Assembly (NCBI RefSeq): GCF_010119615.1 | Contig: NZ_QOVG01000006.1 | Span: 124,001 to 188,000 of the forward strand | DNA: 64,000 nt | Reading direction: 5' to 3' | DNA from: Pseudoxanthomonas gei | GTDB lineage: Bacteria > Pseudomonadota > Gammaproteobacteria > Xanthomonadales > Xanthomonadaceae | Made by a program: the position numbers and the translations under genes | The notes under the pieces: generated by a model | What the model saw: only the letters and a program-made list of their open reading frames with translations | What the model was told of the DNA's origin: nothing | Databases searched by the model: none | In this document: one piece after another, positions 3,056-5,118 of the stretch | Numbering within the stretch: the first letter of the stretch is position 1 | Layout of the letters: the number at the start of each line of letters is the position of its first letter

Positions 3056-4285
3056 CTAGAAGTGGGCGGCGCGGTGTTGGCGGGGGTCCGCAAGCTGCGG
3101 CGCCTGGACCTGCAGTTGCTGATCCTGCGCACGCAACTGCGCCGCGCTGACCTGCGCCGGGGCCTGGCCGGCCTGTTGCGCATCGATCCTGCTGCGCTGG
3201 TGCGCGGGATCCTGCAGGCCGCCCTGCACGGAGAAAATGCCGTGCTCGCGATCCGACACCAGCAGGTGGTCGATGCGCGTCAGGCCGTCCGTACGCGCGC
3301 GCGCGGCGACGCTCGCGGCGGTATTGAAGAAGCGCTCGCCGTCCTCCAGCCCCAGTTGTCCGCGTTGTCCTGCGAGGCCATCGACCGCACTGCGTAGCAA
3401 GCCATTGGATGTGCTGCCGGCATCGCCAATGGTGGCCGGCCCGGCGCCAGGATTGCGCTCGCGTAGCTTCAACTGGGCCAGGTCCTGCGCTTCCATCACG
3501 GCATCGATGAAATGCAGGTCGAGGCGATGCATGAGCATGCGGCCGGGAACCAGGCGCTCGAAGAACGTGAGTGGGTCGGGATCGGGCAATTCGATCCTGT
3601 GGCCGGCCGCATCGGGCATTGCCCATTTCAGGGGAATGCTGTCTTCCTGCAGGTGGGTCAGCAACTCATTCCTGACATGGTAGGTGCGGATCAGGCCCTG
3701 GGCGGCTTCGTGCTTGAGCACGCCGGCATCCATGCCGTAGCGCTCCAGGGTCCGGTCGTGCACGCCGGCCGCGTTGAAGGTCACGGCGGGGACTTCCGTG
3801 ACCATGCTTGCCGCAGCCGCGAGGCCACCACCCAGGGAGTGGCCGGCGAAAATCACGTCCGCGCCGAAAGCGTCCCGCGCTTTCTGCCCCAGGGTGATGG
3901 CGCGACCATACTGCGCGTCCTCCAGGCCAAGCCCCTGGGCGAAATTGTGCTTCCAGTCGCGACCCTCGTCGGTGCCCGCGAACGCCAGCACCACGTGTCC
4001 CTGCACGTCCCGATAGAACGAAGCGTCGAAGCCGCTCTTGGCATCGTGCATGAGCCCCGGATGGATGCCGGCGGCGCGCACCTCATCGTCGCCCATGCGC
4101 GCCCAGCTGCCAGGCAATGGCGCCGCGTTGCCCGCCAGGCCGCGCCGCAGGTCGGTCACCACGTAGTTGTCCTGCAGCAGGCTCGACAGCTCGCGATCGA
4201 TGACGTGGGGTTGCTGGCCTCGCACCTCGCCGGCGAAACCGGTGCCGTGCGTCGGCGGGGAAGAACCGTTCCTTGAATCATCCAT
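3056..4285 (-). CDS. Class-3 lipase with XVIPCD-like C-terminus: probable type IV secretion antibacterial effector
   Basis: 409 aa with no signal peptide. Residues ~85-260 are an alpha/beta-hydrolase lipase: oxyanion region AFAGTDEG (101-108), nucleophile elbow GHSLGG (Ser150) and candidate catalytic His253/His258. Residues ~285-409 match the XVIPCD that docks effectors on VirD4 in Xanthomonas-type T4SS: GLTRIDHLLVS (334-344), GIFSVQG (349-355), DPAHQR (359-364) and a Gln-rich tail. ATG 4285 is chosen over the longer frame (4324) because AAGGA lies 7 nt before it. It follows an ankyrin lipoprotein gene by 77 bp, the order expected for an immunity-effector pair. Predicted role: phospholipid hydrolysis in the envelope of rival bacteria. 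No T4SS structural genes are in the window. The lipase fold is firm; secretion is inferred from motifs. Confidence 0.85.
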   Translation of the reverse strand: MDDSRNGSSPPTHGTGFAGEVRGQQPHVIDRELSSLLQDNYVVTDLRRGLAGNAAPLPGSWARMGDDEVRAAGIHPGLMHDAKSGFDASFYRDVQGHVVLAFAGTDEGRDWKHNFAQGLGLEDAQYGRAITLGQKARDAFGADVIFAGHSLGGGLAAAASMVTEVPAVTFNAAGVHDRTLERYGMDAGVLKHEAAQGLIRTYHVRNELLTHLQEDSIPLKWAMPDAAGHRIELPDPDPLTFFERLVPGRMLMHRLDLHFIDAVMEAQDLAQLKLRERNPGAGPATIGDAGSTSNGLLRSAVDGLAGQRGQLGLEDGERFFNTAASVAARARTDGLTRIDHLLVSDREHGIFSVQGGLQDPAHQRSRIDAQQAGQAPAQVSAAQLRAQDQQLQVQAPQLADPRQHRAAHF

Positions 4286-4362
4286 TCGCAAATCCTTGCG
4301 TGTCGGCCTGGGCCGCCTGGACATGCTTCCGGGCCGCGCAGGTTGCTTCCTGATGGACCTGA

Positions 4363-5118
4363 CTATTGCCGGGGTATCGCGTGCGCAGCCAGCCAGTCAC
4401 GCACTTTCTGGCGCGCCGCCCTGCCGCTGGCATTGAGTCTTGAGTCGGATCCCGCGAACAACGCATCCTGGAACGTCGCTCCCCGCTGGTTTGCCTGCAG
4501 GGGATCGAGGCCGGCCTGCAGCAACTGCAGCACCCGCTCGGCGTCGTTTACATTGGCCGCGACGTGCAGCAGCGAATCGCCCATCGCGTCGGTATGGTGA
4601 AGATCGGCGCCGGCGGCGACCAGCATGTCGAACTGGGGGTTGCGTCGGCTTTCCACCGTGCGGAAAAGTGGTGTCCAGCCCAGCCCCGGGCGTGCGATGT
4701 CGACCGGCGCCTTGTGGGCGATCAAAACGCGCAGGTACTGCGGATCGTCCACCATGGCGGCCATGTGCACCACGGTTTCATCGTCCATGCCGGTCAGGGC
4801 GGGATCCGCACCGGCGTCCAGCAGCGCCGACAACGAGCCAGGTTGCTGGTTCCAGATCGCCCACTCGAGCAGGGTGACATTGTCATCGCCATGCGCAGAC
4901 AGGTCGGCCAAGGAGGCGAGCGCGCGGATGCGGGCCACGTTGCCTTCAGCGACCGCTTCGGCCAGCGGCTTGATCGCCGGCTCATGGAAGGGAAGGGCGG
5001 CGTCCTTGCGTGGTGCGGACATGCTGGTCTGCTCCTTTGCACCGACCGGGTCGGCGGCACATGAAACCATCAGGAGGGAAGTCGCGAGTGCCGCCAAGGC
5101 GGGGGCCTGCTTGCGCAT
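4363..5118 (-). CDS. Ankyrin-repeat lipoprotein, probable immunity protein of the lipase effector
   Basis: 251 aa. A signal peptide ends in a lipobox (LLMVSC, lipidated Cys20; Ala at +2 suggests the outer membrane), so the protein faces the periplasm. Residues ~50-225 hold four to five ankyrin repeats, e.g. LLDAGADPALTG, LIAHKAPVDI, LVAAGADLHHTD, LLQAGLDPLQAN, each preceded by a TLLEWA / TVVHMAA / TPLFRTV / SLLHVAA helix. AAGGA 7 nt upstream supports ATG 5118. It lies directly upstream of, and in the same direction as, the XVIPCD lipase. Cognate periplasmic lipoproteins encoded beside X-T4SS effectors are the usual immunity proteins, so I infer it protects the producer from its own lipase. 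Ankyrin folds bind proteins, which fits. A stand-alone ankyrin lipoprotein is the alternative. Confidence 0.82.
   Translation of the reverse strand: MRKQAPALAALATSLLMVSCAADPVGAKEQTSMSAPRKDAALPFHEPAIKPLAEAVAEGNVARIRALASLADLSAHGDDNVTLLEWAIWNQQPGSLSALLDAGADPALTGMDDETVVHMAAMVDDPQYLRVLIAHKAPVDIARPGLGWTPLFRTVESRRNPQFDMLVAAGADLHHTDAMGDSLLHVAANVNDAERVLQLLQAGLDPLQANQRGATFQDALFAGSDSRLNASGRAARQKVRDWLAAHAIPRQ

Follow-up and report, generated by a model that had tools for sequence, protein, structure and literature searches.

A lipase gene and an upstream ankyrin gene in Pseudoxanthomonas gei as a probable orphan effector/immunity pair of a bacteria-killing type IV secretion system

The lipase gene and its domains

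A stretch of 64,000 nt of the Pseudoxanthomonas gei genome (from here: the window; contig NZ_QOVG01000006.1, positions 124,001 to 188,000) carries a gene for a lipase with a C-terminal XVIPCD secretion-signal domain and, directly upstream, a gene for an ankyrin-repeat lipoprotein. Here we describe both genes as a probable effector/immunity pair of the type IV secretion system (T4SS) of the X type (X-T4SS). The lipase gene has the following features:

3056..4285, minus strand: 409-aa alpha/beta-hydrolase lipase with XVIPCD, candidate X-T4SS effector (X-Tfe), from the open reading frame and Pfam
3440..4213, minus strand: lipase domain, residues 25-282
3827..3844, minus strand: nucleophile elbow GHSLGG, residues 148-153, containing the invariant Ser150
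3131..3415, minus strand: XVIPCD secretion-signal domain, residues 291-385, matched by PF20410, the solved 7mu9 and the Stenotrophomonas structure 7r6s
3059..3130, minus strand: Gln-rich C-terminal tail, residues 386-409, from the translation

The original prediction, made from the sequence letters, had seen an X-T4SS effector in the GHSLGG core, the segments GLTRIDHLLVS, GIFSVQG and DPAHQR and the Gln-rich tail. All of these were found in their places in the translation, the three XVIPCD-region motifs at residues 334-344, 349-355 and 359-364, respectively. The C-terminal domain is indeed an XVIPCD. PF20410 (X-Tfes_XVIPCD) matched it with 64.2 bits (E 1.8e-17); as this is far above the cut-off of 24.9 and none of 14 control genomes had a PF20410 match, the assignment goes beyond chance. 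Searching with the single sequence aligned the solved XVIPCD 7mu9 at E 9.2e-9, and with the family profile the value was 4e-17. According to the available part of Sgro et al. (PMC6536674), a Gln-rich C-terminal region is typical of XVIPCDs.

Within the lipase domain, PF11187 (Mbeg1-like/DUF2974) matched residues 78-193 narrowly over the cut-off (22.8 versus 21.1 bits); the NCBIfam Smlt3024 effector model reached the tail of the protein only, with a score far below its cut-off. The closest solved relative is Tle6 (PDB 9cys and 7ubz for Tle6/Tli), an effector of the type VI secretion system (T6SS) of Enterobacter cloacae, and Ser150 aligns to Tle6 Ser341 in the numbering given in the available part of PMC11470151. 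Ser150 is present in 121 of 121 aligned proteins, counting the query, the catalytic residues and the XVIPCD are intact and conserved, and the reading frame is open. A ribosome-site-like AAGGA at 4297-4293 precedes the start at 4285; use of an alternative in-frame ATG at 4324 would lengthen the open reading frame. The lipase family is widespread in Xanthomonadaceae. At E ≤ 0.001, relatives made up 601 of the 7996 candidates scored, and the best 120 of these 601 covered 86-100% of the query at 54-91% identity.

The ankyrin gene and its internal start

The upstream gene has three features of interest:

4363..5118, minus strand: 251-aa ankyrin-repeat lipoprotein, candidate immunity protein (X-Tfi), from PF12796, the lipobox and synteny
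5059..5118, minus strand: signal peptide and lipobox ending at Cys20, from the translation by eye
5020..5022, minus strand: ATG of Met33 within the gene, preceded by AAAGGAG at 5038-5032 and predicted to start a cytosolic form without signal peptide

The ankyrin gene precedes the lipase gene on the same strand with a gap of 77 nt, and the two likely form a two-gene operon. Its product was matched by PF12796 (Pfam, E 3.6e-12), carries the lipobox LMVSC as read by eye and has its nearest named relative, at 93% identity, in a Pseudoxanthomonas metagenome-assembled genome. Sequence and gene position point to a likely immunity protein, placed directly upstream of its putative effector. Further out, the pair is preceded by cstA, which shares its strand, and followed by a DUF819 gene in the opposite orientation. 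A terminator-like match at 4742-4730 was discarded, its score being within chance.

The internal start is conserved. Starting from 54 loci (L066, L039 and L065 excluded), removal of 7 identical proteins left 47 distinct ankyrin proteins, and in 44 of them a Shine-Dalgarno-like site precedes a Met codon at this place (the exceptions are L056, L057 and L059); the 44 cases are not independent because the ankyrin sequences are related. Further down the ankyrin proteins, 7 of 168 Met codons were preceded by such a site. In five ankyrin genes (L030, L032, L038, L042 and L058) inspection by eye revealed no in-frame signal peptide before the internal start, and for this reason they would perhaps make a solely cytosolic antidote.

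A T4SS gene cluster on another contig

The assembly comprises 3.43 Mb in 50 contigs, with the window on contig C47. Assembly-wide we found five XVIPCD matches, one VirD4 at C33:270773-272575 and one VirB4. Contig C33 carries, over ~17 kb on the minus strand, virD4 followed by virB7, 8, 9, 10, 11, 1, 2, 3, 4, 5 and 6. All twelve class A T4SS subunits are thus encoded and the cluster looks complete, with VirB5 called from a sub-threshold match plus position and VirB1, VirB7 and VirB11 from general family plus position. The 140-aa protein at the virB7 place was matched by PF10671 (TcpQ) over residues 52-130 with 28.3 bits (cut-off 27), which may correspond to the C-terminal N0 domain expected in VirB7.

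Behind virB6 there are two DUF4189 genes, a gene lacking a Pfam match and an XVIPCD effector gene; the Pfam-less gene occupies the usual immunity position beside this effector. The two DUF4189 proteins (L008:8190-8711 and L008:8873-9373) therefore separate virB6 from the effector pair linked to the vir genes. Elsewhere in the genome, on contig C5, a TonB_C-domain gene (L011:3920-4945) is located upstream of another XVIPCD protein, at the position expected for immunity.

Because this cluster lies on C33 and the window on C47, the lipase can be regarded as an orphan effector usable in trans by the C33 machine. The original prediction had proposed such an orphan locus from the lack of virB/virD genes in the window, and with virB1-11 and virD4 on another contig the objection of a missing T4SS fails. 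Use in trans is normal for the X-T4SS, since the X. citri vir locus holds only one effector gene (PMC6536674, available part).

Among 198 family genomes, 87 had some lipase match. A close VirD4 (E ≤ 1e-150) occurred in 36 of the 37 genomes with a close lipase (E ≤ 1e-70), compared to 38 of the 161 remaining genomes; since the genomes are related to each other, the p-value of this association calls for caution.

Synteny and phylogeny of the lipase family

We surveyed 108 loci (L014-L121), a number inflated by duplicates between collections. Related loci were obtained with an alignment as query, taking the best 80, as a single-protein query gave no matches; the XVIPCD profile was built from the family's own tails plus three effectors encoded in the genome of the window. 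At 50 of the 108 loci the lipase has an in-frame XVIPCD, and at 49 of these 50 an ankyrin gene lies upstream on the same strand, close by except in L065 (1.6 kb). At the 58 loci lacking an XVIPCD the ankyrin gene is downstream in 34, upstream in 8 and missing in 16, with some of the downstream genes 0.8-1.1 kb away from the lipase match.

The 8 loci without XVIPCD but with an upstream ankyrin gene are L066, L078 and L117 and the tail variants L026, L028, L029, L055 and L059. The latter are close lipase relatives with a short Gln-rich tail in place of the XVIPCD core (L029 and L055 being one variant), and the genomes behind L026, L028 and L029 (G065, G160 and G141) retain a close VirD4. The secretion signal may have been shortened in these variants, or they may be on the way to effectors without an XVIPCD. 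In L066, from X. axonopodis, the lipase and ankyrin matches are both fragmented.

A tree of the lipase domains was calculated from 74 rows, consisting of the window, L014 and 72 of the loci L043-L121, with L066 excluded. Six Yersinia loci (L080, L081, L082, L084, L091 and L093) are contained in the neighbour counts and were left out of the tree and the residue comparison by choice. The XVIPCD lipases cluster in a single group, which also takes in two rows without the tail. The three resulting changes of the XVIPCD label are readable as one gain plus two losses, the uniting branch having moderate support (93/70).

T6SS parts were detected in three of ten Pfam-scanned relatives without XVIPCD, namely a VgrG-lipase (L075), a DUF2345-lipase (L074) and a PAAR-lipase (L121). 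DUF2345 is presumably a part of VgrG; L075 has both. Such VgrG and PAAR fusions, together with Tle6 of the T6SS as the nearest solved relative, could suggest that the window lipase is itself a Tle6-like T6SS effector. We consider this extremely improbable and rejected T6SS delivery: the genome had no match to the sheath gene TssC/VipB, the one T6SS gene searched, and the Pfam scan of the protein yielded the XVIPCD instead of PAAR, VgrG or DUF2345.

Proposed function of the pair

We assign a probability of about 0.88 to the reading that the locus encodes an orphan effector/immunity pair of the bacteria-killing X-T4SS, with the ankyrin protein as an antidote in two forms. The lipase very probably attacks membranes of rival bacteria after injection by the T4SS encoded elsewhere in the genome. 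Its XVIPCD would be recognized by the VirD4 of the C33 system, and the protein would be injected into neighbouring Gram-negative cells, where the predicted triad Ser150-Glu207-His258 may cleave membrane phospholipids. The ankyrin protein would bind the lipase and block it. Its translation from the first ATG may give a periplasmic lipoprotein, and that from the Met33 ATG a cytosolic protein; the two forms would protect the producer in both periplasm and cytosol. The sequence data behind this reading are the domains, the T4SS gene cluster, the synteny and the conserved internal start, with the functional steps inferred from them.

Several observations weigh against this interpretation. PF01764 (Lipase_3) remained under its cut-off on the lipase (17.7 versus 22 bits), the predicted model has pLDDT values <50 at residues 207-221, including Glu207, and the Foldseek match to Tle6 is modest (TM-score 0.40 by query and 0.57 by target, rmsd 6.3). 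The match of the ankyrin protein to 7ubz_A (Tli) is non-specific, being outscored by other ankyrins and by DARPins. In 38 genomes the close VirD4 is not accompanied by a close relative of the lipase, which is therefore not a fixed part of the T4SS. The assembly of genome G074 is rated 100% complete; it contains a close relative of the lipase (query residues 14-403) and no match to VirD4 or VirB4, hence an effector gene without its machine. Finally, a simple scan found no promoter-like site near the pair.

Some of these points would also fit a housekeeping or secreted lipase, or an effector in decay. The missing promoter-like site, the location apart from the vir cluster and the example of G074, which illustrates that such genes can exist without a T4SS, speak for it. 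Nevertheless, we regard this as very unlikely: by eye no signal peptide is visible in the lipase, its frame is open, its catalytic residues and its XVIPCD are both undamaged and conserved, and the T4SS genes appear to form a complete cluster.

The identification as an X-T4SS effector is supported by the XVIPCD alignment as well as by the presence of a T4SS. The original prediction was hence correct on both lipase and secretion system, but it missed the upstream antidote gene, left the strand unstated and overrated the novelty. A new lipase effector subgroup, as it had suggested, is not warranted, because DUF2974 (PF11187) is already in the 2019 X-Tfe list and close relatives are numerous.

Comparison with known systems

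The lipase shows no basic difference from the X-Tfes described in the available part of PMC6536674. Shared features are the C-terminal XVIPCD, the DUF2974-type lipase, an immunity gene that is usually upstream, and an immunity lipoprotein with possible alternative starts, potential downstream starts having been proposed for X-Tfi lipoproteins there in 2019. A figure legend of that paper lists DUF2974 and Lipase3 among X-Tfe domains, and lipase X-Tfes are expected to act in cytosol and periplasm. As the word "ankyrin" is absent from its main text, that text links no ankyrin immunity proteins to X-Tfes; our searches of open-licence papers revealed no such link either, with the word confined to the reference lists in two of the papers retrieved.

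TfcA (RS14245, smlt2990) of Stenotrophomonas maltophilia is likewise a putative lipase secreted by an X-type T4SS and suffices to kill from the periplasm (PMC8262851, available part); the likeness is one of description. In contrast to the window lipase, its gene is close to the virB locus (PMC6759196). Since DUF2974 and Lipase3 were named in 2019 and TfcA is already a T4SS lipase, the lipase/XVIPCD architecture is known and the effector itself is ordinary. The XVIPCD of XAC2885 at residues 271-395 (PMC6759196) would fit the Xanthomonas members of the family, if XAC2885 belongs to them.

The useful part is the comparison with Tle6/Tli. In a single solved complex of that system, one chain is matched by the lipase and the other by the ankyrin protein. 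Common to both systems are the lipase fold with a catalytic triad, the ankyrin-repeat lipoprotein partner and a cytosolic antidote form from internal starts, which is predicted here. They differ in delivery, by the T6SS there and, as predicted, by XVIPCD and T4SS here, and in gene order, the ankyrin gene being upstream here and downstream in most of the T6SS-like relatives fetched.

They also differ in the residues of the activating crosslink. According to the available part of PMC11470151, Tle6 requires a methylglyoxal crosslink between Arg180 and Lys461, aided by Glu458 and formed only with Tli bound, and the cytosolic form of Tli is needed for an active effector. In the structural alignment, with which the catalytic-His motif as anchor agrees at the C-terminal end, Lys461 corresponds to Gln271 and Glu458 to Asp268. 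Lys occurs at position 271 in 0 of 121 XVIPCD-family proteins (4 of which have a gap). Part of the crosslink site is retained, as the Glu458 position is mostly Asp (100 of the 121 proteins) and is Glu in 7. The alignment begins at Tle6 residue 203, leaving the helix with Arg180 without counterpart; by hand, the nearest equivalent is residue 16, which is Arg in 1 of 121, this N-terminal placing being less sure than the C-terminal one. Among 31 fetched loci without XVIPCD, 29 have an aligned catalytic His (all except L097 and L103), and 15 of these 29 possess the Lys. A glycation crosslink in the T4SS lipases thus found no support at residue level, and with Lys in none and Arg in one of 121 proteins this branch most likely does not use it.

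This bears on a further possibility, namely that the pair is a T4SS-borne branch of Tle6/Tli in which the cytosolic ankyrin protein, besides blocking the lipase, is obligatory for the maturation of this enzyme before export, by a route without a crosslink. The match to both chains, the requirement for cytosolic Tli in Tle6, the conserved internal start and the five ankyrin genes that by eye would yield the cytosolic form only are consistent with it. Yet the missing Lys461 and Arg180 equivalents argue against it, and plain self-protection also explains a cytosolic form, since a cytosolic X-Tfi shields X. citri from its own effector (PMC10933484). We therefore consider an activating role unlikely; if true, a T4SS weapon would depend on its antidote to become armed, which the available literature describes only for the T6SS effector Tle6.

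It appears that two injection machines of unrelated kinds have each been combined with the same lipase/ankyrin module. Compared to the T6SS version, the T4SS version has its genes in the opposite order, retains an antidote with dual starts and lacks the residues of the activating crosslink, thereby providing a natural test of whether the activating role of the antidote depends on that crosslink.
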